A DNA stretch of 64,000 nt from Sinohyriopsis cumingii (taxonomy: Eukaryota; Mollusca; Bivalvia; Unionida; Unionidae): NCBI GenBank assembly GCA_028554795.2, contig CM068827.1:138514493-138578492 (forward strand). Direction: 5' to 3'. A program made the position numbers and the translations under genes. The notes under the pieces were generated by a model. It saw nothing but the letters and a program-made list of their open reading frames with translations, did no database searches and had not been told where the DNA came from. Every line of letters begins with the position of its first letter. Position 1 is the stretch's first letter. This document shows positions 3,308-63,952 of the stretch, one piece after another.

Positions 3308-3601
3308 ACTGCTCCGGTGGCCTAGTGGTTAGAGCATCCACCTCAGATGTGGGAGGTTTCAGGTTCGAATCCCAGCCAAATCATAGCAAAGACCTATAAA
3401 AATGGTAATAACAGCTGCCTCACTTGGTGCTCAGCATTAAGAGGTTAGTGTTAGAACTGGTTGGCCTGGTGTCGGGATAATGTGACTGGGCAAGACATGA
3501 CTTAGGCATTGCTAGGCATCACTGTAAACTGCCACATTAAAGAGATCATAGCTATATGACTGAATTTTTTTAAATGCTGTGTTAAAAATCCAAGTCATAG
3601 A
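3308..3601 (+). mobile_element. tRNA-derived SINE, family 1, copy 1
   Basis: A tRNA-like head carries an A box (ggcctagtggttagagc) and a B box (ggttcgaatcc), followed by a unique body and a tail ending near 'ttaaaaatccaagtcat'. Further copies in this window lie at 9271, 26730 and 50678, one is reversed at 23171, and there is a 3' fragment at 26437. Family assignment rests on this internal alignment. Confidence 0.9.
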
Positions 3602-50677: not shown

Positions 50678-50865
50678 ACCGCTACGGTGGCCTAGTGGTT
50701 AGAGCATCCGCCTTGGATGCGGGAGGTCGTCATACCATAGACTTACAAAATGGTACTAATAGCTGCCTCGCTTGGCGCTCAGCATTAAGAGGTTAGTGTT
50801 AGGAAAAATTGTTAAAGCTACGTTAAAAATCCAAATCACACACAGACACATACACACACACACAC
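50678..50865 (+). mobile_element. tRNA SINE family 1, copy lacking the B box
   Basis: The A box is intact, but the sequence jumps from 'gcgggaggtcgt' straight to 'cataccatagactt', so the B box is deleted, as is a block after 'ttagtgttagg'. Flanked by tctcctaggtt at 50664-50674 and 50866-50876 (perfect 11 bp), so it is a full insertion that later suffered internal deletions, or it was copied from a deleted source. Confidence 0.92.
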
Positions 50866-50925
50866 TCTCCTAGGTTAAATCAATAGTTTGGAGGGGTGGG
50901 ATCATAGTTCTTACCTACCCACAGG

Positions 50926-51148
50926 GTCTAAAGCGCTCTCTGTTACGGATCACTGCCATCTCACCTCTGTCTGCGTGGGTTCGAGTCTCGGATTCGGCTA
51001 ATGTGGGTATGTGAGAAAGCTTGCCAGTAGCTTTTCGTGGGTCGGTGGTTCTTTCCGGGGTTTTCCCGGGTTCTTCCTCCAGCATTAATACTGGCCGCCA
51101 TGTATATCGTGTGCAGAAAAATGGCGTTAAACCCTACAACAACAACAA
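50926..51148 (+). mobile_element. tRNA-like SINE, family 2, intact copy
   Basis: Flanked by a perfect 12-bp duplication, cctacccacagg (50914-50925 and 51149-51160). It contains 'gggttcgagtct' (B box), 'gccagtagctt' and a (caa)n tail, nearly identical to 23793-24039. Confidence 0.95.
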
Positions 51149-51856
51149 CCTACCCACAGGCGAGAGGGCAAAGAGAGCTAACTTTAATGTACCTGGTACA
51201 TTAGTTTACATTCTTGTTTAAGATTTTGCATTTAGCACAGGTGTTTTGGAATGATGAAACTTGGTGAGGAGGATGCATCATGATAAGTAAATACACCATT
51301 ATCACAGTGTTGCAGTACACCAATACAAACCATGTTGCAATACACCCTCATCACAGTGTTGCAGCCAGTCATTTCTTAATGGGGTGGGGGGAGTTAGAGC
51401 AATTTTTTTTACCATAAAGGGCACGTTTTTCTGAGATTGGGCCTTTGTTGAGAGCCATAATATCACGATAGTTTCTAATTTAATAGTTGACATTTTCTTG
51501 TGATGTTGCAATTAAACAAGAAGAATTTATTAGGAAGAAAATGATTTAAAATGTGGGCACCTCGTTTCAATGTAAATTGTCAGATTCAACCCCCAAGAAG
51601 CAGAACCAGCTGTAGGAATGCGTCAGCTCACTTTCTGACCTCTGACTCCAATCGCCCTAGATCCCACTGTCCAGGTTTTATTTTGTTTATTTTTATTTTT
51701 TGGGTGTGAAAATGTCCAGGCAGTGGAATAAATGTACATCATAAAGGACATACTTACCATGATTCTTGATAATACACATTAGATTTCTTAAGATTTTTAT
51801 GCAACCTATTTTGCTTTGGTATGTTTGGTGAAGCAGGCGATATTAGTGAATAGGGG

Positions 51857-52073
51857 CACTAGAGCGACAATGGGAATTAGCATTAAAAACACCCCTGGGC
51901 AAATATAGCGACAATCGAAATTTAACATGGAGAAAAATCGTGGGCAAATATAGGGACAAGGGAAATTAACATGGAGAAAAAAAATCGTGGGCCACTCTAG
52001 CGACAAGGGGAATTGAACATGGGGGGAATAAAATGTGGGTCTATCTAGGGACAAGAGGGAATTGAACATGGGA
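51857..52073. repeat. Subterminal tandem repeat, about 47 bp x 5
   Basis: Five diverged units (starting at about 51857, 51901, 51946, 51993 and 52041) with the core 'tag(c/g)gacaa', then 'gaaatt.aacatgg' and '.aaatcgtgggc'. The array lies between SINE-bearing flank and the first gene of the element, where the terminal repeat of a Polinton is expected, so it is probably part of the terminal inverted repeat. The short open antisense frame through it is a repeat artefact. Confidence 0.8.
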
Positions 52074-52130
52074 TTTTTTTTTTTTTAAATTTTTTTTTAA
52101 ATTTAAAAAAGGGGTAGGCAATTGAAAGTC

Positions 52131-52146
52131 ATTCTCTTTTCGAGAA
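52131..52146 (-). promoter_or_regulatory. Histone downstream element (U7-like), gene 1
   Basis: On the minus strand, TCTCGAAAAGAGAATG, a purine-rich block about 8-10 nt after the stem-loop. This is where U7 snRNA pairs in replication-dependent histone pre-mRNAs. Confidence 0.6.
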
Positions 52147-52154
52147 ATATTGGT

Positions 52155-52170
52155 GGCCCTGAAAAGGGCC
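52155..52170 (-). terminator. Histone-type 3' stem-loop, gene 1
   Basis: On the minus strand this reads GGCCCTTTTCAGGGCC: a 6-bp perfect stem with a TTTC tetraloop, preceded by AAA and followed by ACCA. This is the canonical metazoan histone mRNA 3' stem-loop layout bound by SLBP. It lies 24 nt after the stop of the 124-residue coiled-coil gene. No AATAAA is seen between the stop and the loop. Confidence 0.85.
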
Positions 52171-52193
52171 TTTGGTTTCTTCTTCTTCTGCTT

Positions 52194-52568
52194 CTAATTT
52201 CTTCTTTTTCTCAACCAACTTCTTATTTTCTCTCCTACACTCTTTCTCTTCTTTTTTTTCTCCTCCTCTTCTTTCTTCTCCTCCTCTTCTTTCTTCCTCT
52301 TCTCATTTTCTTCTTCTTTTTCAATTTTTTCGTTCCATTTTCTTATCCTTTTACTTTCCTCTTCATCCTCCTTCTCCTCCTTTATCTCTTTCATGACACC
52401 ACTTATTATGTCCTTTTCTTTTCTTAAGTTATTAATCTCCATCTTTACTCGATGGGGACTATAGGAATAGTGGTCTTCATTGAGTCTCACTAACATCTGC
52501 TCCATTATTCCTAAATTGTCCAAAACGTCTTGTAATTTTTGCATTTTGTCAAGGTGGTTCGAAGCCAT
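52194..52568 (-). CDS. Coiled-coil protein 1 with histone-type mRNA end
   Basis: A 124-residue protein that I do not recognise. Residues 1-65 form a predicted helical head (KLQDVLDNLGIMEQML); residues 60-112 are almost only Glu, Lys and Arg (EEKEDEEESKRIRKWNEK and onward), a single alpha-helix or coiled coil; the tail is basic (KIRSWLRKRRN). The ATG is set by a promoter module 63 bp upstream that is conserved with the two neighbouring genes. The 3' end carries a histone stem-loop. Length and layout match the genes at 52988-53341 and 53849-54208, so they look like a tandem family. The charged tail could bind nucleic acid or chromatin; that is inference. Confidence 0.7.
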   Translation of the reverse strand: MASNHLDKMQKLQDVLDNLGIMEQMLVRLNEDHYSYSPHRVKMEINNLRKEKDIISGVMKEIKEEKEDEEESKRIRKWNEKIEKEEENEKRKKEEEEKKEEEEKKKKRKSVGEKIRSWLRKRRN

Positions 52569-52618
52569 CTTCTTTTTTATTCTTTGTAGAATGGTTTGAA
52601 CGACGAATACTGTGCGTT

Positions 52619-52656
52619 CTTATACGAAAAGCGCGGACGTGAAGGAAAACATCCCC
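52619..52656 (-). promoter_or_regulatory. Promoter module, gene 1 (26-bp element plus TATA-like)
   Basis: The plus-strand block 52631-52656 (core gcggacgtgaaggaaaac) is one of four identical 26-bp copies. Reading toward the gene, it is followed after 6 bp by TATAAG (52619-52624). The element starts 63 bp from the ATG. It includes ACGTC, a CRE-like core. Confidence 0.75.
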
Positions 52657-52699
52657 TAAAAACATAAAATTAATCTTACCTAGATCATGACCCAACAAC

Positions 52700-52725
52700 G
52701 CGCGGACGTGAAGGAAAACATCCCC
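52700..52725 (-). promoter_or_regulatory. Second upstream copy of the 26-bp element, gene 1
   Basis: Identical to the copy at 52631-52656 and placed 69 bp further upstream. Genes 2 and 3 have one copy each. The 40 bp between the two copies (ctaaaaacataaaatt and onward) is also found upstream of gene 2, so a small duplication of the promoter is likely. Confidence 0.75.
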
Positions 52726-52855
52726 CCTACTTTCTCATTTCATATAATAAAACCCTAACTATACTCTCCACATACGCTAAGAAACAATAAAGAAACCCAT
52801 AATCTACTATTCACACAAACTTACGTTATCAGTTACAAACACAAACACTCACACT

Positions 52856-52942
52856 ATGAGAAAAGAGTCAGTGTTTATATTCACACTACTCTACCTACAC
52901 ATTGGCAAATTGATGGTCATTTCTTTTCTAGAGTATTGGGGT
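52856..52942 (-). repeat. Duplicated 3' flank of gene 2
   Basis: About 85 bp after the stem-loop ('agtgtttatattcacactac', 'tctacctacac', 'attggcaaattgatggt') is nearly identical to 53722-53806 behind gene 3. It includes the U7-like purine block (minus strand AGAAAAGAAATGACC at about 52916-52930). Weaker similarity continues into the spacer to the next promoter, supporting duplication of a whole gene unit. Confidence 0.85.
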
Positions 52943-52958
52943 AGCCCTGAAAAGGGCT
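52943..52958 (-). terminator. Histone-type 3' stem-loop, gene 2
   Basis: Minus strand AGCCCTTTTCAGGGCT, a perfect 6-bp stem with a TTTC loop, preceded by AAA and followed by ACCCC. It lies 29 nt after the gene 2 stop, with a purine-rich U7-like block 12 nt further on (AGAAAAGAAATGA). Confidence 0.88.
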
Positions 52959-52987
52959 TTTTTTTTTGGAACTTCATGGACACCTGG

Positions 52988-53341
52988 TTAATGGTGGCAC
53001 CTTCCAGGCCTGGCGCCACATACGCATCTTGTTCCCCAGTTGCTTTTTACTTTTTTGGGAGAGAGAGCAGAGGCAGGATAAATAGCTTCAGAATCCCAAT
53101 TTTCTGTCTCTGGGATTCTGAAATTCCTTTTTCTTCTCTCCTTTTCCTCCTCTTCTTTGTTTCTTCTCTCCTCTTCCTCTTCTTTGTATCTTCTCTCATC
53201 CTCTTCTTTGTTTCTTCTTTCCTCCTCCTCTCTCATCCTTCCCTCTTCGACAATGGCCTCCGCGGCCAGTTCGTTCAACAGGCGCCTGGCATATTCCAGA
53301 TGCACACGAAGTTCCAACAGTTTCGCTAGTCTGGTGTTCAT
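52988..53341 (-). CDS. Coiled-coil protein 2 with histone-type mRNA end
   Basis: A 117-residue protein. The helical head has RLAKLLELRVHLEYARRLL, then a Glu/Arg/Lys run with an internal 9-10-residue repeat (EEERRNKEEDERRYKEEE), then a tail with three cysteines (TRCVCGARPGRC). The first ATG, at 53341, is chosen because the 26-bp promoter element lies 64 bp upstream, the same distance as in the sister genes. The head pattern (KL..L...L...R.LL) recurs in genes 1 and 3. Function unknown. Confidence 0.7.
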   Translation of the reverse strand: MNTRLAKLLELRVHLEYARRLLNELAAEAIVEEGRMREEEERRNKEEDERRYKEEEEERRNKEEEEKERRKRNFRIPETENWDSEAIYPASALSPKKVKSNWGTRCVCGARPGRCHH

Positions 53342-53391
53342 TCTCGTGTTGATCAATCAACAAGGGTAGCTGGACTGCCGAACGAGTTTTA

Positions 53392-53430
53392 ATTTATGGT
53401 GAAAGCGCGGACGTGAAGGAAAACATCCCC
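53392..53430 (-). promoter_or_regulatory. Promoter module, gene 2
   Basis: The 26-bp element at 53405-53430 is identical to the gene 1 and gene 3 copies. It is followed toward the gene by ATAAAT (53392-53397). The extended upstream block 'taaaaacataaaatt' to 'acctagatcatgacc' matches gene 1 with one difference. Confidence 0.75.
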
Positions 53431-53721
53431 TAAAAACATAAAATTGATCTTACCTAGATCATGACCAAAAAAACAACGCGCAGACCTAAAAGAAACACTC
53501 ACTCACTTTTTTATACTTCCCATCACTATTCTAAAACAATTTTTCATTAACCACTTCAATATACTATCCACATACGCAAAGTAATCTAACCTTAACTCTA
53601 CTCTCCCCACACCTCAAACACCAAAAAAAAACATGATCTTAATCTACTATCCACACCAACGTACGTGAGCACTTACAAACACACAATCCTATACACAAAC
53701 ACATACACTCGCACTATTAAA

Positions 53722-53806
53722 AAAAAGAGTTAGTGTTTATATTCACACTACTCTACCTACACACATTGGCAAATTGATGGTTATTTCTTTTTCTTGAGTA
53801 TTGGGT
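53722..53806 (-). repeat. Duplicated 3' flank of gene 3
   Basis: Near-identical partner of 52856-52942. It includes CAAGAAAAAGAAATAACC on the minus strand (about 53779-53796), close to the classic CAAGAAAGA histone downstream element. Confidence 0.85.
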
Positions 53807-53822
53807 AGCCCTGAAAAGGGCT
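53807..53822 (-). terminator. Histone-type 3' stem-loop, gene 3
   Basis: Minus strand AGCCCTTTTCAGGGCT, followed by ACCCA. It lies 26 nt after the gene 3 stop, with the purine-rich downstream element about 10 nt beyond. Third copy of the same arrangement. Confidence 0.88.
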
Positions 53823-53848
53823 GTTTTTTTGTTTGCTATGGCAATCAT

Positions 53849-54208
53849 TTAGTTTCTAAGAATGCGATGTCCTCTGAGGATAGACTTTCTGGCGATAGGT
53901 CTGCTTCTTCGGAAAGAGAAGAAGAACTCTTTGGTGTCGATACGACAATCGACAAAGCATCTGTCAGGTTCAGGTTGCTGCTGTTGTTGTTGTTGTTGTT
54001 GCTGTTGCTGCTGTCTCTGAAGTCTGTACTTCTCTGTCCATTCTTCTTTTTCCCTGTTCACTTCTTCTCTGAAGAGCTCTTCTATCAGGTCTTCAGTGAC
54101 TTTTAACATTCTCACATTCTCTATCTCTTCTGGCTTCGGTATCAGACTGTGTCTGACCCTATGCAAATTCACGTAGGCTTCGTTTAGCTTAGCTAGTTTG
54201 GAGCACAT
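53849..54208 (-). CDS. Coiled-coil protein 3 (polyQ) with histone-type mRNA end
   Basis: A 119-residue protein starting MCSKLAKLNEAYVNLHRVRH. The head resembles the other two (KL..L.....L...R..L). The middle is charged and the coiled coil runs into a pure glutamine run of about 13 residues encoded by mixed CAG/CAA, then a basic, Arg-rich C-terminus (ARKSILRGHRILRN). The open frame extends upstream of the ATG, but that part contains the promoter element, so the ATG at 54208 (67 bp from the element) is preferred. Function unknown. Confidence 0.68.
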   Translation of the reverse strand: MCSKLAKLNEAYVNLHRVRHSLIPKPEEIENVRMLKVTEDLIEELFREEVNREKEEWTEKYRLQRQQQQQQQQQQQQQPEPDRCFVDCRIDTKEFFFSFRRSRPIARKSILRGHRILRN

Positions 54209-54263
54209 CTTCGTAGGAGGATGAGTCGACAATGGATGGTTAGACTGGAAACTACCCCGGTTC

Positions 54264-54300
54264 TTAAAGTCAAAGCGCGGACGTGAAGGAAAACATCCCC
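54264..54300 (-). promoter_or_regulatory. Promoter module, gene 3
   Basis: Fourth identical copy of the 26-bp element (54275-54300) followed by TTTAAG (54264-54269), 67 bp from the ATG. Confidence 0.72.
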
Positions 54301-54545
54301 CACACGGTTTTCTTGCCGCAACGTTCAATGAGTGTCATGAGAGGGATAGTAAGAAATTAAAGAGCATGAATCCAGCATTCTCATAGTCAAACAAAAGACA
54401 AAGGCATTATTTTCAAAACACAACATTTTTTATTCAAAAAATCACTTAATACTAAACAACAACTCTAACATTTTTTAAACAATAATCCAACAATATAACA
54501 TCAAACATTTTTTTCAAATCACAAACATTTTTTTCAATTCACACT
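54301..54545 (-). terminator. Capsid/protease block 3' UTR with AATAAA
   Basis: AT-rich sequence between the protease stop and the gene 3 promoter, with 'aacattttttt' repeats. On the minus strand an AATAAA lies at 54429-54434, about 110 nt after the stop. This block therefore uses a conventional polyadenylation signal, unlike the three genes to its left. No histone stem-loop is seen here. Confidence 0.6.
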
Positions 54546-55106
54546 CTACTTTAAACAGGGCTGACAACGTTGTGAATGAAATTGTGATTTCCACTGTTGG
54601 AAATCATTAGGCCATTGATGGACACTACGTTTCCTAGCTTGACACAAAAGATAAACATAATGGTCACAAAACCATCGATCTACTTTCACATCATTTCTTG
54701 AAGAAGAACGAGGATCAAAATGAATCACTAAATGTTCTAAGGAATAGCCCAGGCTGCGATGATGCAGAAAATACACACAATATTGTCCACACACCAAAGA
54801 ATCTGTGCCTTGTAATTTCACATTATTGAATCGGGTGGTCTGAGCATTTCTTCTCATAAAGTCGATGATATCGTCTTCCAAAGGGGGCAATCCGTACGAA
54901 TCGAAATATTCCACACATCCTTCTTGAGGAAAGTAAACGGCTACCCAGTGGGTTCCTGGGAGATGACTGTCGTCCGTGTTGATGACATAAGCTAGATGGT
55001 CTTGAGGTTTGCGATGAGGGAGTTCATCTTTAGCACAGACAACGGGATTCCAAGAAGCCGTGTACGAACTGTGGTTCAAAAGGTAATAAAGTTCCCAGGT
55101 ATCCAT
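54546..55106 (-). CDS. Adenain-like cysteine protease (virion maturation)
   Basis: 186 residues. Catalytic residues sit in the adenain order: His53 (PGTHWVAVYF), an acidic Asp69 in EYFDSYG, Gln99 (KLQGTDS) and Cys106 in LVCGQYCVYFL. In adenoviruses and Polintons this enzyme cleaves capsid and core precursors in the virion. The ATG at 55106 opens directly on MDTWELYYLL; upstream in-frame codons contain no earlier ATG. It follows the Cys-rich gene by 17 nt, the last of the capsid block. The reading frame is intact and all key residues are present, so it is one of the best preserved genes of this element. Confidence 0.92.
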   Translation of the reverse strand: MDTWELYYLLNHSSYTASWNPVVCAKDELPHRKPQDHLAYVINTDDSHLPGTHWVAVYFPQEGCVEYFDSYGLPPLEDDIIDFMRRNAQTTRFNNVKLQGTDSLVCGQYCVYFLHHRSLGYSLEHLVIHFDPRSSSRNDVKVDRWFCDHYVYLLCQARKRSVHQWPNDFQQWKSQFHSQRCQPCLK

Positions 55107-55123
55107 TTGTGTGGTTTTTTTCT

Positions 55124-55609
55124 TCACAGGTAATAATAAGTCGTCAATTCGATCCTGACTCTTTGTTTGAAAATGTCTGACAAATAACCGTTTCTTCGTT
55201 TCGTCTCCTCACTCTGATTCAGGAGAGCTTCGATACGATGGATCTCTTGAGTGGTTAATGGTGGACAAGAATGTTCACGCAAGTCTTTATACCACTGGTG
55301 CCACACGTCTTCGTCCGAGATGAGACTCCAAGCCTCGTCCAGATACTCGTCCAATTTTTCTTCTTGACTCAGCATCAGGCATTTATCGTGTTGAATTTGA
55401 CTGGGATGATCGTTTTGACATCCATAGCAATTTTTCTTGATCAATTCCGTCATTTTTTCGACCAAGTGTTTGGCAAAACAGCAGACTAAATGGGCTTCTT
55501 GTTCTGGCCATCGTGACTTCATCATGATCACTTCTTCTTTTTCCATGGTCTCCTCACATTCCATCTCCAAAGTTTCTCCACTAGGTAAAGAGGGATAACA
55601 GTCTTCCAT
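55124..55609 (-). CDS. Cys-rich conserved Polinton protein, unknown function
   Basis: 161 residues. The most notable segment is NCYGCQNDHPSQIQHDKCLM (about residues 60-79), a possible C-x2-C-x9-H-x2-C zinc site, followed by LDEAWSLISDEDVWHQWYKD. Proteins with this CYGC...H..C pattern are commonly seen next to the capsid and protease genes in animal Polintons, but none has an assigned role that I know. It sits 6 nt after the capsid gene. The frame is intact. Confidence 0.75.
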   Translation of the reverse strand: MEDCYPSLPSGETLEMECEETMEKEEVIMMKSRWPEQEAHLVCCFAKHLVEKMTELIKKNCYGCQNDHPSQIQHDKCLMLSQEEKLDEYLDEAWSLISDEDVWHQWYKDLREHSCPPLTTQEIHRIEALLNQSEETKRRNGYLSDIFKQRVRIELTTYYYL

Positions 55610-55614
55610 GGTTT

Positions 55615-56928
55615 CTAATAGTCTAGAATGACTTCTCTCAAACTGTTGATTTCTATGGTATTATCGAATTCTGCATACAGGATGACGTTCACCGTTACAT
55701 CAGGGTCTCGGGTTGCAAACTGAATTTCCACACGAATCTGGCCGGATTTTATAGGGTGAAAATGTCCCTCGTCGCTGCCTTGGTCTGGAGTGAAATCGAA
55801 AGCCCACAAAGCATAGCCTCCTGCATAATCCTCGTACGTAATGCCATGACTGGTGTTGGTTCCTAACTGTCCGGTAGCTTCGTACAAGGACAAGTACGAT
55901 CTCAAGTAATTCTTCTTCTCAAAGTTAGGTTCGAAAGGTCGGGTACACAAGGTTTTGCCATCGCGACTGACTTCGATCTTGGACACACCAAAGTGTTGAA
56001 AGTAGAAAGGATTTTTATCGGCAGCTCCGTTGAAGGCTGTATTCTCGACCATACCAACGATCAAACGTTTGGGTAACTGTCCTTGGAACAGATGATCTTC
56101 GATCATGGATCGCTGTCCCTTGGGAATGGTGAAGGTTTTCACTTCCACGCGTCATATGGGATACTTGGCGGTCGTTCTGCTTAACGTCTGACTGATGTCG
56201 TTTCCCACTTTAGGTAACACTTCTACGCGTCGTACGTAGAGTCTGGCTTCCTCGATGACAGTTTTGCAAGCAGTAGTACCTATCAAATGGAAAGCGGCAC
56301 TGCTACGATTCAGTCTCAGGCGAACATTCACCCCATTCAGCAAATATTTATCTTGCAACCACATGTCCAAATGCAAACGATCCATCAGTTCTAAACTTTT
56401 GTTGGCTCCCATGATTCTGTTTCTTCGTTCTACAAATCCATCATTGTTGTCTTTGGTTGCATTAGTTTCGAATGTTTCAAACTTGTCAGCTTCGTCAGCT
56501 TCCCATAGCACACAGGCATTGAGATGAGTGTTCTTGGCATCTATTCCGTACGTCAAGAGATTTTCCAGGTAGGCACGATAAGGGTAAGTATCCATGCTGC
56601 TACTAACTAGTTTGTTATTCAAGTACAAGTCCACTCCACTGAACAAGGAATGCATGAAATTGTTGACGGGAGCTATTACCTCATCGCCATCTAGGGGCGA
56701 ATTGTCCTTATTGACAACTTTGACTTTCAAGTACAAGTAACTGCTATTCAGATCGATGTAATCTTCTGGCTGTCCTTTAATTTCAAACTCGATGGGAGCT
56801 GAGGCTGTCAATGAGGAGACGGGGTGAAATTCCACCCACTGAGATTCTTGCATGGTCATCATGGTGGGGGGCATGGCAAACAGGTCCAGTTCCGACTTGG
56901 AACAGGCACAAGATTCTTGGTGCATCAT
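55615..56928 (-). pseudogene. Major capsid protein (double jelly roll), split by in-frame TGA
   Basis: The first half (56928-56152, about 258 codons from tandem ATGs) contains CSKSELDLFAMPPTMM, QWVEFHPVSSLT and DYIDLNSSYLYLKVKV, the start of the hexon-like capsid protein of Polintons. The second half (56151-55615) contains KTFTIPKGQRSMIEDHLF, GQLPKRLIVGMVEN, and near the end YAEFDNTIEIN. Both halves are in the same reading frame, separated only by the TGA at 56152-56154. Together they have the usual family length (about 440 codons). So a single nonsense codon breaks the gene between the two jelly rolls. The codon is followed by C, a context known to permit some readthrough. Neighbours are the pVI-like gene (17 nt upstream) and the Cys-rich gene. 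Confidence 0.9.
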
Positions 56929-56945
56929 TTTTTTGTTGCTGTTTC

Positions 56946-57353
56946 TCAATAGTCGAAAACGTCTAAGTCTCGAACGGTTCTTCTTTTCTTGGCCTTTCTA
57001 GCTTGAAGTCTGGTGAAAGGGTGTTTTCTTCGTCGTTTCTTTCTGCCTTGTCCTTGCTGAATGCCTGACTCGGTAGCGTGCAGGGCATTTATAGGTGTGT
57101 CTCGTCGGCCTAAAATGTCTTTGCCTGTTTGCAGCAAGACATTTTTGCCTGCCCTCATGAAGGCTGCTTTAGGATTTTGTTTGTCGATGATGACATTTTC
57201 GAGAAATTCTTTGCCTTGCGTCAGTGCCGCATCTTTCAAGGCGTGCAATCCGCGTGTCACCATCGGTTTCAACACCGGGGCCACCGAACGAAAGGCCGAT
57301 TTTAACATATCTCCTAAACCGTGTCCTCGCTGTCCAGCAACCCCTCGGTACAC
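56946..57353 (-). CDS. pVI-like minor capsid/membrane-lytic protein, no ATG
   Basis: 135 codons. The N-terminus has the family pattern (YRGVAGQRGHGLGDMLKSAF) followed by an amphipathic helix region (VAPVLKPMVTRGLHALKDAA), as in adenovirus protein VI-like proteins of Polintons, which disrupt membranes and bind capsid. The C-terminus is strongly basic (GRKKRRRKHP, ARKAKKRR). The frame is bounded upstream by the TAA at 57366-57368, which is also the stop of the penton-like gene. The codon where a start is expected (57351-57353) is GTG, and the next Met is residue 16. Either initiation is lost, a GTG is used, or splicing supplies the start. Confidence 0.75.
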   Translation of the reverse strand: MYRGVAGQRGHGLGDMLKSAFRSVAPVLKPMVTRGLHALKDAALTQGKEFLENVIIDKQNPKAAFMRAGKNVLLQTGKDILGRRDTPINALHATESGIQQGQGRKKRRRKHPFTRLQARKAKKRRTVRDLDVFDY

Positions 57354-57365
57354 TGGATACCTGAC

Positions 57366-58295
57366 TTACGAGTCGTGAGAGAACCGCTTTCGAAAATGGA
57401 GTTTCACTGTGACTTTTCCTTTGGTGAATGGAATATTTTGTCCCAAATCTCCTTTTATAGCAATGTTGACCGTGTCCAAATACGACTTGCTGACAGGCAA
57501 ATAGTGAGGATGGACAAATTCGCGGTGAACGTGATAAGTGTTTCCACCTTCCTCGTCAGCGTTCGTGGCAGAATCCACTTTGAAAGGAATGACACGCAGT
57601 AACGGTACAGAGGTGTGTCCCACCACGTTGTACTCCACCACATCGGAGTACACAAACATCAAATTCAGTCCTTGATTCATTTCTACCGGGGCACGAAATA
57701 ACTTGCTAAAAGACTCGTTGTCGTAAACGATGGGTAATTCGTTTTTCTTGATCATGGCAATTCTCATGTCCATGTCTCCGCCCAACATGTCAAACAATTC
57801 AGAACAAAATAGAATGGACAGGATTTTACTCCCGTCAAATTTCATCAAGAAGCGACGAGCTGTTTTGTGATATTCCATGGTGACACTTTTTGTGACACTT
57901 TCCAAAGCTTTCAGAAACACGACATTAAACCTGGAGGTAATGGTGCTCACCAAATGTTGACCACTAAAATAATACCCTGGGGGAATGAACAAGTGATAGG
58001 TGGTGTACTTTTGATTTTGTAAACGGGTTTTCTTGTCATATTTGCCATGGGTATCCAAGTACTGTTGCATTTGCTCGTCATAAACTTCCACATCAAAAGA
58101 ATTTTGATTGGGAAGGACATTGAGGACTTGGGTCGGGTGAATGATTTCCACTAAAGCCACTTCCCAATGGGCTTCGTGATCTAAAGGGATGGCCTGAGGT
58201 AATTTGGCTGTGTAACAGCACAACGTGTTGTGGGGAAACACCTCCATGGAACTGTCACTGGGTAAGGTTAAGTAAAATTGGTTTTGGTGACTCAT
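57366..58295 (-). CDS. Penton-like minor capsid protein (single jelly roll)
   Basis: 309 residues from ATG to TAA, uninterrupted. The start (FYLTLPSDSSMEVFPHNTLC, then KLPQAI and HWEVALVEIIHP) and the end (GKVTVKLHFRKRF) are typical of the Polinton penton-type protein, which forms the five-fold vertices. The ATG overlaps the stop of the upstream transmembrane gene (ATGA). It is followed by the pVI-like and major capsid genes, the usual order of the morphogenesis cluster. Confidence 0.88.
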   Translation of the reverse strand: MSHQNQFYLTLPSDSSMEVFPHNTLCCYTAKLPQAIPLDHEAHWEVALVEIIHPTQVLNVLPNQNSFDVEVYDEQMQQYLDTHGKYDKKTRLQNQKYTTYHLFIPPGYYFSGQHLVSTITSRFNVVFLKALESVTKSVTMEYHKTARRFLMKFDGSKILSILFCSELFDMLGGDMDMRIAMIKKNELPIVYDNESFSKLFRAPVEMNQGLNLMFVYSDVVEYNVVGHTSVPLLRVIPFKVDSATNADEEGGNTYHVHREFVHPHYLPVSKSYLDTVNIAIKGDLGQNIPFTKGKVTVKLHFRKRFSHDS

Positions 58296-58708
58296 AATTC
58301 CAGAGTTCTGTGGCTGTCCGAGGGGTTACTGGACGTCAGAGGTGTGTCTCCGCCCAAAATGGGGTTCTGGTTGTGGTTGTTGTTGGAGTGGTAACTGGCA
58401 CTGGCACTGGATACAAGGTTCCCGTGGTTCCCGTTCGAGGTGAATTTCAGGGAGGGATTAGGAAGCAGGTAACCGATGCAACTGCTCAATAAAATGGTCC
58501 ACAATTGTTTGTCTCCTTGTTGCAAACTCAAATTGGCAATGGCTGCCCCGATGACACAATACACCACGAAGATTTGGCAGAAAAAGACGATTTGCGTTTT
58601 AGGCACACGTTCTCCACACCACACCCACAAGGGTTGTTTTTGTAAATCTTGCAGAGAAGAACTAGGTGAAGGAGTGGTCGACGTAGCTGCGTCTGTGTGA
58701 AAGGGCAT
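58292..58708 (-). CDS. Two-segment transmembrane protein of Polinton capsid cluster
   Basis: 138 residues from ATG 58708 (the open frame starts three codons earlier with a GTG). Two hydrophobic segments, TQIVFFCQIFVVYCVIGAA and TILLSSCIGYLLP, are separated by a short polar loop. They are preceded by a Trp/Cys-rich VWCGER and followed by a Ser/Asn-rich tail. The stop overlaps the penton start by the ATGA arrangement. A small membrane protein with this 'LWT.LLSS..GY.LPNP' segment next to the penton gene is common in invertebrate Polintons. Its role is unknown; an envelope or membrane-scaffold role is conjecture. Confidence 0.75.
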   Translation of the reverse strand: MPFHTDAATSTTPSPSSSLQDLQKQPLWVWCGERVPKTQIVFFCQIFVVYCVIGAAIANLSLQQGDKQLWTILLSSCIGYLLPNPSLKFTSNGNHGNLVSSASASYHSNNNHNQNPILGGDTPLTSSNPSDSHRTLEL

Positions 58709-58713
58709 GATGG

Positions 58714-59824
58714 TCACTTCTTTTTATAGTCGATGACTTGCGAAGCGTCGATCCAAGAATCAAAACTGGGTGGATATCCTTTCCAACGTACTTTGACTTC
58801 TTTGACACGTCGTTTGCCCACTTTACGGGTTCTGCGTTCGAGAATGCTTTCGATGTCGTACACGTCGTCTTCTTTTTTGGTGACACGTTGTAACTCGGGC
58901 AAATAAAACGTTCCTTTGAGCACTTCTCCGTTCATGTCTTCCAATTTATAGACGGTAGGATGACGGCCATGCACTCGTCCAGTGACGCGAAACAATTCGG
59001 TCGTCCAGTTAGGTAAGTAACCTTTGTCGAAAGTGCGTTTGGTTTTGCCAATGCGCACCCAATCTCCTACGGCCAACATTCCACTTTTCTTGGGGACAGC
59101 CCTCGTCGGGGACGTACCAAACAGACGCTCAAACACCAACACTTCGTTCTCGGGAGTCACGTCTTGCGGGGAACGTCCGATGCTTCGATGGTAAGATTGG
59201 TTGTACGCTTGCACCAGGTGCGGTAAGATGTCGATGTACTTCAGAGTGTGGTGATGCGTGAAATATTTCCACATGCGTTCTTTCAAACTGCGTTGAAAAT
59301 GTTCCACGATGCTGGCTTTGGTTTCTGGATTCTCGGTGGTAAAAAAAATGAATGTCACGTTTCTTTAATTCTTTTTGGAAAGCTTGATTCAGAAATTCGG
59401 TACCTTTGTCCGTTTGCCATCGAAGAGGGTGACGACCGCTTTGTTTCAACACTCGTTGCAGGGTTCGTACTAACTCGCTGCTCGATTTGGAAGTCAAGGG
59501 CACGACCCAGGCAAATTTGGAAAAGACGTCGATGACACAAAACAAATATTTGTAGCCACGATTGTAGCTGGCCAAATGAGAGACATCGGCTAAATCGGCT
59601 TGCCATTGATGATCGATGCCTTCCACTCGGGTGCGACTTCTGGCAAACTTGCGTCGAATGGGTTTGTGTAAAGTGTAGGTAGCTTGTTCTCGTAACCATT
59701 GTTGCACTTGAGGTAAACGGAGACTTTTCAGTCGAGTTTTGGCAGCACGATACAATTTTTGAACTCCTGCGTAACCTGCAGGATGCGAGGGATCGTAGTA
59801 AATGCTGGCTAAGACTTTTTCCAT
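58714..59824 (-). pseudogene. Retrovirus-type DDE integrase with chromodomain, frameshifted
   Basis: The N-terminal piece starts at ATG 59824 (MEKVLASIYYDPSHPAGYAG), the zinc-less Polinton type of N-terminus. The first two catalytic residues are present: Asp77 in WQADLADV and Asp139 in WQTDKGTEF. The reading frame changes at an A8 run on the plus strand (59341-59348; T8 in the gene). The remaining frame (to 58714) carries the third catalytic residue (Glu in SIVEHFQRSL), at the expected spacing of about 35 from Asp139, an SH3-like C-terminal region, and a chromodomain (VYDIESILERRTRK, then VRWKGYP and DSWIDASQVI). The enzyme would insert the element; the chromodomain would steer it to modified chromatin. 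As given, no single frame contains all three acidic residues. Sequencing error in the homopolymer is possible. Confidence 0.9.
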
Positions 59825-59872
59825 TTTTTGTGTTGGTTGGTGTGTTAATAAGGCACCCACTCTTGGAGGATG

Positions 59873-60490
59873 CTACTCTTTTTCTCTTCGGGTATTTTCT
59901 TGGATTGCAATGCTTTGCGTGTGCAACCGGCAATAGGTGTTGAAGAGGAGGATGTCTGAGCAGGGGGATATCGGTTCTTGTTTCACTTCTGTCTTCACTT
60001 CTGTCTTCACTTTCTTTTTCTCTTGTGATGAAGAAGGGGTGGCCATAATCTTTGTAATCCATCCAATTCTGGAGGTAGGTGGTGTTGTTAACTTGCGTAC
60101 TTTTTCTGGTGGAGTTTGAAACCCTTCTTCTTCTTCTTCTCCTTTTTCTGTCTTGGTCACTGGTAGTGGTGGTACTGGTACTGGTACTGGTACTGGTGAT
60201 GGTGCTGGACTTTTCATCAAGGTCTTAAAATCTTTCAGAGTGGGTAGAGCTGTTTCGTCTAAAGCTTTCTGGTGAAAGAGTTGCAGTCGTTGCAAGAGTT
60301 GACCGTACTTTTGCGATTTTTCTCTTTCGGACAAATCTTGGCGATCCATCAAGGACTGCAATTCGTGTTGTAACTGGGACATCTCGCTCAAATGGGGATT
60401 GGGAGGTAAATGCGGGGTGCGTTGTTCTTGCCACCGATGGTATTCCATCCATCGTTTGTAAGGCACTAAAGCCAGTTTTCGTCCTTCCAT
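59873..60490 (-). CDS. Conserved Polinton coiled-coil protein, unknown function
   Basis: 205 residues. The N-terminus is GRKLALVPYKRWMEYHRW. A helical core follows (LSEMSQLQHELQSLMDRQDL, then REKSQKYGQLLQRLQLFHQK), a pattern often seen in Polinton proteins next to the integrase. A Pro/Val linker (PVPVPVPVPPLP) encoded by a short DNA repeat follows, then an acidic run, TP motifs (GFQTPPEKVRKLTTPP) and a basic tail. An interaction or core protein is plausible, but I know no assigned role. The stop is 48 nt upstream of the integrase ATG. Confidence 0.7.
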   Translation of the reverse strand: MEGRKLALVPYKRWMEYHRWQEQRTPHLPPNPHLSEMSQLQHELQSLMDRQDLSEREKSQKYGQLLQRLQLFHQKALDETALPTLKDFKTLMKSPAPSPVPVPVPVPPLPVTKTEKGEEEEEGFQTPPEKVRKLTTPPTSRIGWITKIMATPSSSQEKKKVKTEVKTEVKQEPISPCSDILLFNTYCRLHTQSIAIQENTRREKE

Positions 60491-60538
60491 GGGGTTGTCA
60501 GGGGTCGATTCTGAGATCTTGGGACTTCCGAGGTCTTT

Positions 60539-60925
60539 TTATCTTGCTCCCACCAGTCCTCCCAACATGGTTCCCAAGACTCCTTTCAGTATGGGACCTA
60601 ACAAGAGGGGTAAAATTCCTCCACGTTGGACCAACATCTTCTTTTTTTGACGAATGGGAATTTTCATTTGAACCATTTGGCGAAGAACGTGACGATGTTT
60701 GCCTAAGCATTGTTTCTGGTGTTTGGACAAAGGGATCATGCCTTTCAAGACGTTCAAACAACATTCGCACACGGTATCGATGACCTCTTTGGAGGCCGAT
60801 TGAATGAGTTTTTTTTGTAGAGGTGGAGAAGCTTTGGACAGGACAGATAACATGTCCCATTGTTTGACTAAACGTGGTGGTAGTCCTTTCCTTTTCTTTC
60901 CTTGGGGTTTTCTGGAGGGTGACAT
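60539..60925 (-). CDS. Small basic virion-type protein with hydrophobic tail
   Basis: 128 residues, intact. The core has LSKASPPLQKKLIQSASKE, a Cys-rich helix (DTVCECCLNVLKGMIPLS), a basic stretch (RQKKKMLVQRGG) and a Gly/Leu tail (ILPLLLGPILKGVLGTMLGG). Animal Polintons commonly carry this type of protein, often compared to adenovirus pX/core-like basic proteins; true homology to a named adenovirus protein is not established. A TATA-like box lies 57 bp upstream of the ATG. It is related to the broken gene at 61560-61892 (same helix-basic-GG-hydrophobic plan). Confidence 0.75.
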   Translation of the reverse strand: MSPSRKPQGKKRKGLPPRLVKQWDMLSVLSKASPPLQKKLIQSASKEVIDTVCECCLNVLKGMIPLSKHQKQCLGKHRHVLRQMVQMKIPIRQKKKMLVQRGGILPLLLGPILKGVLGTMLGGLVGAR

Positions 60926-60981
60926 CTTTGTGTCTTCAGGAGCACCAAAAACACTGATACCCCGACTTGGTCACAGGCCTT

Positions 60982-60989
60982 TTTTTATA
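60982..60989 (-). promoter_or_regulatory. TATA box of small basic protein gene
   Basis: TATAAAAA on the minus strand, 57 bp upstream of the ATG at 60925, leaving room for a start site about 25-30 bp downstream. The region 60926-61124 is otherwise non-coding. Confidence 0.6.
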
Positions 60990-61124
60990 CTGGAACACGT
61001 CGCCACTGATTGTCTTTACGGCGTATCAACTTGAGGACAGGCATGACACTCGTGCAGGAGTACGCAACGGACTAAATCGAGCCAGTTCTTGCTTGGACAA
61101 ATCCAGTAAACTTTGTAACATGCC

Positions 61125-61557
61125 CTATCTTTCTTGAACTTTGATTTTGGGAGAAGGTACGTTGTGAGCAGCAGCCACTGCCACTAAATTGGAGGGTCCT
61201 GCCACTGGGGAAGTTCTTGGTGTGATCAACGTCTCCAAGTACTCTTCAGTTCCTGGTGTCATCAACGGAGAAGTGGATGAACGTGAGGATGCCGGAAACG
61301 CAGTCACTGGTTTGCGAGTGTAAAGTTGCGTCCTGGCCGAAGTGCGTCTCTTGCGACCAGTTTTCTTCTGTGGACTTTTCTTTTTCTGGGGACTTTTTCT
61401 CTGTTTCTTTTTCTGGGGGCTTCTTTTCTTCTTCCGGGGTGGTGTTTGGAAAGAGGAGGGTCCCGCCACTGGAGAAGTTCTCCTTGGGGACCTGGTCTTT
61501 TTCTTTTTCTTCTTGGGGCTTCGTTGGACTTTTTCCTTGGGTATAACTTGGGGGCAT
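61125..61557 (-). CDS. Lys/Ser/Pro-rich basic protein, frame uncertain
   Basis: Three overlapping open frames run through this A-rich, low-complexity region. The likely product frame ends at 61125 and reads KKKRSPQKKKQRKSPQKKK then GRKRRTSARTQLYTR and EEYLETLITPRTSPVAGPS; it is strongly basic with S-P and T-P motifs, like a DNA-condensing core protein. That frame has no early ATG. The only nearby ATG (61557) is in another frame, and the change would have to fall within the A-rich run around 61490-61515. The motif RTSPVAGPS occurs twice in the same frame (about 61465 and 61205), which favours that frame. Confidence 0.5.
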
Positions 61558-61559
61558 TA

Positions 61560-61892
61560 GGATCCCATCTTAAGAGAGAGCGAATGATGACCCCTCCTAG
61601 AGTACCGCTCCCTCCAGGTTTCAAAATGATTTGTTTTTTGGTTTGAGTGTCGATGCGGGGATCGGCCAGTTGGACCAAAGCGACTTTGTTTCTATCGAAA
61701 AAGCGTTTGGTTTGATGAGGAATCTGAATGATTCCTTGGAGTATTTGACGTGCCGTCACCGTGAACCATCGTAAGACTTCTTTTGAGACTAGCTTCTAAG
61801 ACACGAGCTCGTATTTGTGGATTTTTTTCTCGACTGATGCCATACAAGGCACGAATCAATTTGACGGGAAGATGCGACTGAAGGGACGTCAT
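61560..61892 (-). pseudogene. Second small basic virion-type protein, frameshifted
   Basis: The start is ATG 61892 (MTSLQSHLPVKLIRALYGIS). The frame runs to about 61770, after which the matching continuation lies in another frame (LQGIIQIPHQTKRFF, then VALVQLADPRID, KKQIILKPGG and TLGGVIIRSLL). The pieces follow the same plan as the protein at 60539-60925: N-terminal helix, ILQG/VLKG, basic stretch, GG, hydrophobic end. I read it as a diverged paralogue broken by a frameshift near 61765-61780. The overlapping long Arg-rich continuation to 61304 is probably not part of it. A TATA box lies 39 bp upstream. Confidence 0.6.
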
Positions 61893-61930
61893 GTTGACGT
61901 TGTGTGAGACAGACGAAAAAGGGTCTGAGG

Positions 61931-61938
61931 TTTTTATA
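61931..61938 (-). promoter_or_regulatory. TATA box
   Basis: TATAAAAA on the minus strand, 39 bp upstream of the ATG at 61892 and 23 bp after the stop of the ATPase gene. It indicates a separate transcript for the basic-protein genes. Confidence 0.6.
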
Positions 61939-61960
61939 GATTTTTTTATGTGGAGTGAAA

Positions 61961-62689
61961 TTAAGTCGAGGACGGAGACGTGTACAGGACAGGCCCTCCG
62001 TCTTGGCGCCAGTGGTGAAACAAGTGGGTACGAAATCGCAAATCCTCGGGGGTTGTAGGTTTCAAATCGACGAGTAAATAGGCGTGTGGAGTTTGAGTGG
62101 CATCGTCGTACGCCTGAGTCAGCCAAGGCGTTCCTAACTGTTTGGCTAAGACTTGCACTTGTGATTTATCTCGAGGGCTTTTAAACAAGACCACGTAATG
62201 CTCATTGACACTGATGGTGCGATGGGCTTTACTTTGTTGAAACAAATTTTGGTTGATGTAAACGACACTGGCATTACGATGATGCCCTTTGCGCGTGAAC
62301 CACAGTTTAATTTCTTCTTCGTCTTCTCCTAACATGTCGTCAAAAATGACCAAATGGGTTTGACGGGAGTCAGAGACGATGTCATCGTCTTCTTTAGGAA
62401 TGCCTTCCACAAACACGATGGAATCGCCTTGACTCTCTCGCAAGAGGGTGTACGCCGATTGCCACTCTTTGTAACACCACACGATCCGTTGAGGTGGCCG
62501 ATCGATCAAATGATGTTTATGTTCGATCAAACGTTTGACGAATTCGGTTTTGCCTGAACCGCTAGGTCCAGCAATGAGCATGTTAAAGGGATGGCGAAGA
62601 TACAAAGCCTCCCAACTGGCACGATCTAAGTGTTCGTCGATGACTTTGACAGTAGAGGAAGAGGGAGCAGAGACAGCAGAGGTAGCCAT
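61961..62689 (-). CDS. FtsK/HerA-type packaging ATPase (A32-like)
   Basis: 242 residues, intact. Walker A is GPSGSGKT (41-48) in HPFNMLIAGPSGSGKTEF; Walker B is LVIFDD (113-118); a sensor-type motif follows (SVVYINQNLF, 141-150). This is the DNA-packaging ATPase family of Polintons, poxviruses (A32) and relatives, which pumps the genome into preformed capsids. The N-terminal 20 residues are Ser/Ala-rich and variable. The ATG at 62689 lies 47 bp downstream of a TATA box. Confidence 0.93.
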   Translation of the reverse strand: MATSAVSAPSSSTVKVIDEHLDRASWEALYLRHPFNMLIAGPSGSGKTEFVKRLIEHKHHLIDRPPQRIVWCYKEWQSAYTLLRESQGDSIVFVEGIPKEDDDIVSDSRQTHLVIFDDMLGEDEEEIKLWFTRKGHHRNASVVYINQNLFQQSKAHRTISVNEHYVVLFKSPRDKSQVQVLAKQLGTPWLTQAYDDATQTPHAYLLVDLKPTTPEDLRFRTHLFHHWRQDGGPVLYTSPSST

Positions 62690-62735
62690 AGTGTGAGAAA
62701 TGTCACTTGTGACACGAAAACAAACAAGACAAGAG

Positions 62736-62743
62736 TTTATATA
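62736..62743 (-). promoter_or_regulatory. TATA box of ATPase gene
   Basis: TATATAAA on the minus strand in AGTATATAAACTC, 47 bp from the ATG. It lies between the AATAAA of the upstream gene and the ATPase start, so one transcript ends and another begins within about 80 bp. Confidence 0.7.
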
Positions 62744-62760
62744 CTTTCTTTCAGAACACG

Positions 62761-62766
62761 TTTATT
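62761..62766 (-). terminator. AATAAA polyadenylation signal
   Basis: AATAAA on the minus strand, 7 nt after the stop of the membrane protein gene at 62774. It probably serves the whole right-hand cluster of small genes. Confidence 0.6.
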
Positions 62767-62773
62767 GAATGTT

Positions 62774-63064
62774 TCAAACATGAATACGAAAGACAAAAAT
62801 ACATAAAAGCCAAAGGCTTAAGTACAAGGATAAAAGGCACATGATAACCATTAACGTGGAATAAACACAAGTGTCTCTACAACAACATGTTTTGGGTAAT
62901 GTTCTAACCAGTTCTATAGTAGGGGGTAAGGTCACACAAGTGTCCGCCCGAAAGGGTCTTTCAGGCCTGTCCACGACGGTCCCGTCCTGGGTGACGGGTT
63001 CTTCTGGCACCGTCACTAACACGGGTTGAAAAGTAACTTTTTTCCTTGAACAACTCTCGTGCAT
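62774..63064 (-). CDS. Single-pass membrane protein, unknown
   Basis: 96 residues from ATG 63064 (an earlier in-frame ATG at 63121 would add 19 residues). A polar N-terminal part (KKVTFQPVLVTVPEEPVTQ) and a Cys cluster (TLPKTCCCRDTC) are followed by one strong membrane segment near the C-terminus (STLMVIMCLLSLYLSLWLL). It overlaps the previous gene by about 100 nt in a different frame. Not recognised. A small envelope-like or accessory membrane protein is possible. Confidence 0.55.
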   Translation of the reverse strand: MHESCSRKKVTFQPVLVTVPEEPVTQDGTVVDRPERPFRADTCVTLPPTIELVRTLPKTCCCRDTCVYSTLMVIMCLLSLYLSLWLLCIFVFRIHV

Positions 63065-63284
63065 ACTGGGCCACTTCTTGGGTCCAAGCCTCAAAATCCC
63101 ATTCTTTCCAGGCACGGACATCTGTCCAATGGGGATGTAAGTCACAAGCTACACACACATAGTCATACACGTCTTGGGTAGCTAAAAGTTGACGAATCTT
63201 TTTTTCCTGTTGAGGTCGAGAAGTATCCAGATGTAAACGTAAGGCTTTGAGCAAAAGGAGTTTTTCGTGATCATTTAAGGCCAT
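62961..63284 (-). CDS. Small helical protein, unknown
   Basis: 107 residues. It starts MALNDHEKLLLLKALRLHLD and contains QEKKIRQLLATQDVYDYVCV and WTDVRAWKEWDFEAWTQEVA, predicted mostly helical, with a basic C-terminus (ARRTRHPGRDRRG). The ATG at 63284 is chosen over the longer open frame because it overlaps the stop of the preceding gene by about 10 nt, as in the other tightly packed genes here. Function not recognised. Confidence 0.55.
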   Translation of the reverse strand: MALNDHEKLLLLKALRLHLDTSRPQQEKKIRQLLATQDVYDYVCVACDLHPHWTDVRAWKEWDFEAWTQEVAQYARELFKEKSYFSTRVSDGARRTRHPGRDRRGQA

Positions 63285-63502
63285 GGGGGATGTGGTAAGT
63301 ACTGATGGTAAAGAGTCCACAAAGAATCGGCTGGTAAACGAAATCCCAGAAAACAAGTCACTAAGACACACACCACTTGTCGACCCCAATTGAATGGATA
63401 CAGTTCTTGTAATAATCGATGGCAATTATCCACGGTTTGAATATGGTCATTGAGTTCCTTCCACGGAATCTGTTCAATCACTTGTGACATAAGCCGTGGC
63501 AT
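63275..63502 (-). CDS. Small protein with one hydrophobic segment, unknown
   Basis: 75 residues: a helical N-terminus (VIEQIPWKELNDHIQTVDN) and one hydrophobic segment (RQVVCVLVTCFLGFRLP). ATG at 63502, 18 nt after the previous stop; its end overlaps the next gene. It is supported mainly by gene packing. No family recognised. Confidence 0.45.
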   Translation of the reverse strand: MPRLMSQVIEQIPWKELNDHIQTVDNCHRLLQELYPFNWGRQVVCVLVTCFLGFRLPADSLWTLYHQYLPHPPWP

Positions 63503-63520
63503 GGATTCCTGTTTTTGTAC

Positions 63521-63952
63521 TCACTTTTTTCGGAAGCAATACACGTACATTCGACCCAGACATCTTCTTTCTCCAGAAGGAAATCTAGAATACTGTAACC
63601 TACAGTTCAAACTTCGATTAGAAGTTTTCTCTTCCACTAAGTAGATTCCATGTAACATATGTTGGTAATCCTTTAACTCGTCTTCCTCAATGCGTTGCTC
63701 TAGGTGAATCTCGAAGCAACCAAAATGATGAACATTTCGTTCATTCACTAACTCACTAACAAGGTCTGACCACTGAAACAATTTCTGACGAATCAGTTCT
63801 TTGATACCATTCAGGTACCAGTGATTAAAGATCTGGTGACGTAACGGATGCAATTGTTCTTTACGTTTGACTTGTATTTTCACCAGCTCTCGGTAAATCC
63901 TTTCTCTCAACTCCTCAGGCAAGCCCAAAATGTTCTCTTGTAAAGTATCCAT
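63521..63952 (-). CDS. Protein with F-box-like N-terminus, unknown
   Basis: 143 residues from ATG 63952. The N-terminus (NILGLPEELRERIYRELVK) fits an F-box-like pattern (LPxEL..RI...L). The rest is helical (KELIRQKLFQWSDLVSELVN, then FEIHLEQRIEEDELKDYQHM) and ends with Cys/Arg-rich residues. F-box proteins recruit targets to SCF ubiquitin ligases, and some DNA viruses use them; that role here is conjecture from about 15 residues. It is the rightmost gene in the window, and the 48 bases beyond it show nothing clear. Confidence 0.5.
   Translation of the reverse strand: MDTLQENILGLPEELRERIYRELVKIQVKRKEQLHPLRHQIFNHWYLNGIKELIRQKLFQWSDLVSELVNERNVHHFGCFEIHLEQRIEEDELKDYQHMLHGIYLVEEKTSNRSLNCRLQYSRFPSGERRCLGRMYVYCFRKK

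Follow-up and report, generated by a model that had tools for sequence, protein, structure and literature searches.

Histone-type promoter and 3′-end signals on non-histone genes of a Polinton-like element in the bivalve Sinohyriopsis cumingii

Why should small genes of a virus-like mobile element, encoding proteins that do not look like histones, end in the stem-loop of animal histone mRNAs? The locus that raises this question occupies positions 52131 to 54300 of a 64,000-nt stretch of the genome of Sinohyriopsis cumingii (contig CM068827.1, positions 138,514,493 to 138,578,492; hereafter the window) and lies at one end of an element that we class as adintovirus/Polinton-like and estimate to be present in thousands of copies in this bivalve genome. 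A first-pass annotation of the window had proposed that three tandem minus-strand genes of 124, 117 and 119 residues, here named g1, g2 and g3, carry the signal used by SLBP and U7 on replication-dependent histone genes. Open reading frames (ORFs) of these lengths are present where it had placed them, and an SLBP/U7-type signal on non-histone genes is supported, with loop and purine block matching host histone 3′ ends in sequence and in spacing. It is very probable, in our judgement, that the element expresses a set of accessory genes in the manner of replication-dependent histone genes, through the SLBP/U7 and histone-promoter machinery of the host.

The three genes are paralogues arranged in tandem. 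g1 (52194-52568) encodes a highly charged, probably coiled-coil protein, g2 (52988-53341) a charged protein, and g3 (53849-54208) a helical protein that contains a polyglutamine tract and ends in a basic tail. Each is followed on the same strand by a histone-type hairpin, as the first-pass annotation had reported: GGCCCTTTTCAGGGCC (GGCCC..GGGCC) at 52155-52170 after g1, and AGCCCTTTTCAGGGCT (AGCCC..GGGCT) after both g2, at 52943-52958, and g3, at 53807-53822. The Rfam model of the histone 3′ stem-loop, RF00032, matches at 52130-52175 (40.8 bits), 52918-52963 (30.2 bits) and 53782-53827 (32.6 bits), of which the first alone exceeds the gathering score of 34, and nowhere else between 51000 and 64000 at E values up to 5. 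The bottom pair of the stem is G-C in g1 and A-U in g2 and g3, a two-sided difference that keeps the pairing. The loops stand 23, 29 and 26 nt past the stop codons of g1, g2 and g3, a range slightly different from the 24–30 nt first given, and the AAA said to precede every loop is found at g1 and g2, with ACA in its place at g3. Beyond each loop, on the minus strand, lies a purine block, a candidate histone downstream element: GAAAAG 13 nt past the g1 loop (52136-52141), GAAAAG 14 nt past the g2 loop (52923-52928) and AAAAAG 14 nt past the g3 loop (53787-53792). A 51-nt stretch with the g1 loop folds at -16.1 kcal/mol (z -3.8), and the 14-nt core, with 2 mismatches allowed, has 3 matches in the window against a mean of 0.30 and a maximum of 2 in 100 shuffles; the loops of g1–g3 are not independent of one another, because the genes are paralogues whose flanks can be aligned.

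Two more genes of this kind lie just outside the window at the other end of the element, whose right-hand continuation is the next 8 kb of the chromosome (locus L079). They are divergent: g4 is an ORF of 189 residues on the minus strand, and g5, on the plus strand, is a gene of the 77-residue type with a stop at codon 2 in this copy. Their loops score 34.6 bits (g4, minus) and 40.8 bits (g5, plus), both above the RF00032 gathering score, and all of g1–g5 have the 6-bp stem and 4-nt loop of that model. The loops of g2, g3 and g4 are internal to the element, and those of g1 and g5 are at the inner edges of its terminal inverted repeats. The left repeat, as far as compared, covers 51979-52178, includes the g1 stem-loop at its inner edge, and is identical at 193/200 positions to the inverted right end (L079:7811-8008).

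The host genome (2.9 Gb) offers a direct yardstick, since its histone genes form arrays built of units of about 8.3 kb. The unit that we compared (L078) holds H3, H4, H2B, H2A and H1, each ending in an RF00032 match of 35.0–39.4 bits. The purine block [GA]AAAAG follows the loop at 13–14 nt in all five host genes and all five element genes (13, 13, 13, 14 and 14 nt in the host; 13, 14, 14, 13 and 13 nt in g1–g5), and the stop-to-loop distance is 27–38 nt in the host versus 21–29 nt in g1–g5. When the stems of the ten sequences are set together, 60/60 cells pair, and at two of the six pairs both partners differ, once in g2/g3 and once in host H1. The likeness extends past the purine block in some genes: there g4 resembles host H2A, with 0/2000 shuffles as good, and g2 and g3 also resemble host H2A (p 0.005 each), in a comparison of 25 gene pairs with uncorrected p values in which most pairs are unremarkable.

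A second signal, which the first-pass annotation had not reported, lies on the other side of g1–g3, in the form of four exact copies of a 26-nt motif on the minus strand. One copy, followed by TATAAG, is close to g1 (52631-52656) and another is farther upstream of it (52700-52725); the remaining two precede g2 (53405-53430) and g3 (54275-54300). At up to 3 mismatches the motif occurs in the window upstream of these genes only. In the host histone unit it recurs 108 nt before the ATG of H1 (3 mismatches) and 110 nt before that of H2B (4 mismatches); the best of 1000 shuffled motifs reached 7 mismatches in the same unit (mean of the best, 10.2). Next to element loops, some motif copies share 23 nt exactly with the host H2B promoter. 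Within the motif, ACGTCCGC resembles what we take to be the HINFP site; HINFP is a histone H4 factor, and a text search for its site found nothing. HINFP is linked to cyclin E/CDK2/NPAT in the available text of PMC3771687.

Copies of the element fetched from elsewhere in the genome repeat this arrangement. Counting cases in which the protein match starts no more than 6 residues from the gene start and at least 200 nt of upstream sequence is present, the motif, at 2 mismatches or fewer, stands upstream of g1 in 37/37 copies, g2 in 44/44, g3 in 21/23, and g1′, a different gene found at the g1 site of some copies, in 8/8. A metagenomic relative of g3, P0067, has a translated leader, GVFSIASAL, that is compatible with the motif at 24/27 bases, against 0/5000 shuffled peptides. 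Histone-type signals thus flank g1–g3 on both sides, and those of g4 and g5 are confined to the 3′ end. The stretch between g4 and g5 (L079:7300-7560) contains CACGTGACGTCA and two ATTGG (reverse CCAAT) boxes, and lacks the 26-nt motif.

Among the capsid, integrase and polymerase genes, neither histone-type signal was found. The capsid block closes with an AATAAA at 54429-54434 (minus strand), 111 nt past the stop of the protease candidate, an ordinary poly(A) signal and the one that had been noted at the outset. No AATAAA lies within 400 nt 3′ of g1–g3, the nearest being 496 nt (g1), 406 nt (g2) and 1267 nt (g3) away.

The signals would be unsurprising if the genes encoded histones, and the earlier statement that they do not is borne out for g1–g3. 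No Pfam family was above cut-off for g1–g3 or g4, and none of the five host histones gave a tblastn match at 1e-3 in 70 element loci; the products of g1–g5 are not histones. The predicted model of g3 has helices at residues 3–20 and 25–75 with a mean predicted local distance difference test score (pLDDT) of 72. One homologue of g1 is present in the protein database, P0074 of the unionid Sinanodonta woodiana (78% over 88% of residues 1–66), whose best match in the host genome is at 93% (150 of 8,914 candidates scored), so that the host is probably a different but related species. For g3 there are nine homologues, from metagenomic and NCBI sources, at 72–85% over the searched part. IMG/VR yielded no relatives when searched with two capsid-like proteins, alignments of the capsid and of g3, a piece of the polymerase or the loop pattern; the g3 alignment had no match in prokaryote contigs, and phage records held no relatives. 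Because these searches were empty, conservation outside the host genome rests on proteins, namely the nine g3 homologues, the single g1 homologue and the P0067 leader; DNA from elsewhere that carries the loop was not encountered.

Inside the host genome the signals are abundant. Exact matches number 33,933 for the loop pattern SCCCTTTTCAGGGSNACC and 30,300 for the promoter core, and neither reversed control has any; given a few signals per element, these numbers imply several thousand element copies. A 2.2-kb query returned at least 45 matches (40 scored of 9,946 candidates). In an RF00032 scan of the genome, 75 matches were scored of 589,472 first-look candidates, and the best 30 were fetched: all 30 of these loci contain genes of this element and none contains a host histone gene. 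In 29/30 the main loop could be typed as that of g1, g1′, g4 or g5; the exception, L072, has an untyped main loop and a g1 within the locus.

Loss of the loops from related elements that retain the genes was one of the outcomes that the first-pass annotation had named as fatal to its reading, and the loops are present. The fetched loci contain 179 loops that could be typed, of which 148 are unchanged and 170 are accompanied by the purine block (36/36 at g1, 14/14 at g1′, 49/52 at g2, 36/39 at g3, 16/18 at g4, where one loop is an opposite-strand reading, and 19/20 at g5). This count leaves aside L001–L008, which repeat the window and L009–L015, and 191 loops of class '?'; 148 of the latter are the two exact hairpins on the opposite strand, a few others are variants of these hairpins, and the remainder comprises one untyped exact GGCCC hairpin (the main hit of L072) and loops that look like chance matches.

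The coding parts have also been maintained in intact copies. Calculated from full-length intact ORFs only, over pairs with a synonymous rate (dS) between 0.08 and 1.5, the median ratio of nonsynonymous to synonymous rates (dN/dS) is 0.11 for g1 (9/36 intact), 0.21 for g2 (34/52), 0.10 for g3 (10/39), 0.44 for g4 (11/18) and 0.12 for g5 (15/20); for g1′ (4/14) a single usable pair gives 0.21. Picking intact ORFs removes stops, yet we infer that it would hardly push dN/dS so low. The intact copies bear a signature of purifying selection, and the genes were kept as proteins during the spread of the element. In ten copies (L035, L036, L038–L043, L046 and L047) the g1 site holds g1′, of 182–204 residues where intact, which is followed by a typed loop in 9/10; its module is part of the terminal repeat and so is weaker evidence than those of g2–g4. 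The swap of g1 for g1′ looks like gene turnover at a fixed, histone-regulated site.

In the explanation that we favor, host SLBP and the U7 small nuclear ribonucleoprotein (snRNP) would cut the pre-mRNAs of g1–g5 a few nucleotides past the loop and leave mRNAs without poly(A), and a host histone transcription factor would be recruited to the promoters of g1–g3 by the shared motif. These genes would then be expressed in S phase and their output would drop once replication stops, and the core genes would use ordinary poly(A) signals. The proteins may be needed during copying of the element DNA, for example as replication helpers or DNA-packaging partners, and the 3′ module was probably acquired from a host histone gene. 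The workings of the SLBP/U7 pathway in known animals are described in the available text of PMC1924863 and PMC3771687.

Other explanations have to account for the same arrangement. The hairpin might be a DNA-level feature of element ends that serves replication, integration or terminal structure, its likeness to a histone stem-loop being incidental; in favor of this, the loops of g1 and g5 are at the inner edge of terminal inverted repeats with 193/200 identity. We regard this as improbable: the loops of g2, g3 and g4 are internal to the element, all five follow a stop codon by 21–29 nt, lie on the coding strand and keep the host spacing to the purine block, and g1–g3 have the histone promoter motif at their other end. 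If a host histone gene was captured and its coding sequence then exchanged or lost, the signals could be passive leftovers on mRNAs that are in practice polyadenylated. This would agree with the resemblance of the g4, g2 and g3 modules to host H2A past the purine block and with the exact 23-nt identity of some motif copies to the host H2B promoter. Capture as an origin is compatible with histone-type expression of the accessory genes; passivity is not. The modules persist in copies where g1′ has replaced the coding part of g1, no AATAAA is available within 400 nt past g1–g3, and the change from G-C to A-U in the stem is compensated, so that passive leftovers are also an unlikely account, if a shade less so than a DNA-level role. 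The sheer number of genomic loop matches, 33,933 against at least 150 scored histone matches in the host genome, invites the further idea of a decoy, in which stem-loop transcripts titrate host SLBP or U7 and disturb the histone supply and the proteins are secondary. A decoy needs neither an ORF nor a matched promoter, and intact copies of g1–g3 and g5 have median dN/dS of 0.10–0.21; we consider it very improbable.

Several observations weigh against histone-type expression of these genes. The g2 and g3 loops score below the RF00032 gathering score, yet they are matched over all 46 positions. Conservation of the g1 and g5 loops could have another cause, both being inside the terminal inverted repeat. 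Within the host unit, which is the whole of the host side of the motif comparison, the promoter motif stands out only at H1 and H2B. Near H2A it is reversed and has 7 mismatches, near H4 just its end is recognisable (9 mismatches), and none is listed at H3. At up to 2 mismatches the motif is upstream of none of 18 g4 and none of 19 g5 copies. Broken copies are frequent, the ORF being intact in only 9/36 copies of g1 and 10/39 of g3. TATAAA, a weak poly(A) variant, lies 108–109 nt past the stops of g2 and g3 and could be a weak backup poly(A) signal. Rfam gave no match to a host U7 and host SLBP was not found at cut-off, although control genomes were silent in both searches, so that absence is not shown. 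Finally, the mRNA ends, the lack of poly(A), the binding of SLBP and the S-phase timing of g1–g5 are what we infer from DNA sequence.

Candidates for the two host factors did not stand up. A consensus pattern for U7 had 16 matches in the host genome against 26 for the reversed control, none U7-like on folding, and these are attributed to chance. The best partial match to SLBP scored 21.4 bits, below the cut-off of 27, and its frame is by eye unlike SLBP. The TATAAA past g2 and g3 is contained in a block conserved between their downstream regions (83%; about 52839-52901 and 53701-53763).

How unusual is this arrangement? Viruses are known to carry histone genes, for example the histone H4 of bracoviruses, in which the product is itself a histone; both cases are virus-related and have a link to histones, but here the product is not a histone. 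With animal replication-dependent histone genes, as represented by the host unit, g1–g5 share stem-loop, purine block and spacing, and g1–g3 also the promoter motif; unlike them, g1–g5 have non-histone products and are dispersed in a mobile element, outside the histone array. To our knowledge, descriptions of histone stem-loops usually confine them to histone mRNAs. Literature searches, judged by title and the start of the abstract, found no precedent for such stem-loops in non-histone genes of mobile elements, Polintons and adintoviruses included. With adintoviruses and Polintons (Mavericks) the element has in common a type-B polymerase, a retroviral integrase with a C-terminal chromodomain, an A32-like ATPase, an adenovirus-like protease candidate and terminal inverted repeats; it differs from both in its five histone-type 3′ ends, three histone-type promoters and two BIR-domain genes. 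The available text of PMC11071296 describes no such histone-type signals.

We think it likely that g1–g3 belong to the first known class of non-histone genes under full histone-gene control, from promoter to 3′ end, and that a virus-like element took these signals from its host and scattered them over tens of thousands of sites. Most of the genome's histone-type stem-loops would then be part of the element, and its accessory proteins would be made only in replicating cells. If so, the SLBP/U7 pathway can be hijacked by a mobile element for other proteins, which would explain how an integrating virus times its expression to host replication and would offer a natural experiment on the number of stem-loops that SLBP can handle. 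The S-phase coupling of an endogenous virus would become directly testable. In genomes of this kind, RNA data obtained by poly(A) selection can be misleading, and so can stem-loop searches, because all of the best 30 RF00032 loci here carry element genes and no host histone gene.

The rest of the element is a core block on the minus strand (54546-63952) with the protease candidate, capsid-like proteins, integrase with chromodomain and packaging ATPase. The protease candidate (54546-55106) matches the C5 protease family of Pfam at E 0.022, below cut-off, and the A32-type packaging ATPase (61961-62689) matches Pox_A32 at 1.2e-07. Pfam matches to rve (7.9e-15) and Chromo (3.5e-08) identify the integrase, which in this copy is split over two ORFs of different frame (58714-59824). 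The capsid-like ORFs had no informative Pfam match; for one capsid-like protein the protein database contains 64 homologues, all unnamed, and two adjacent ORFs (55615-56928) resemble by eye the halves of a hexon-like protein. In L079 the type-B polymerase is in two pieces (DNA_pol_B_2, 1.4e-26 and 3.8e-16), and its N-terminal piece had no Pfam match to the OTU-like domain named for that position in the available text of PMC11071296. Because several core genes are split, this copy is probably not active.

Two neighboring genes with BIR (inhibitor of apoptosis) domains are on the minus strand of L079, at 682-1320 (Pfam 4.4e-22) and 1379-1837 (1.9e-13). On the strand opposite to the polymerase, an ORF at L079:6032-6499 (plus) has two CCHC zinc knuckles and then a charged tail. 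A 45-nt tandem repeat, present in three copies at 51877-52013 of the window, belongs to the element's terminal region. A tRNA-like match of 31.9 bits lies far to the left, at 3311-3383, and a similar tRNA-headed repeat was seen by eye at about 50680-51150; both are probably short interspersed nuclear elements.

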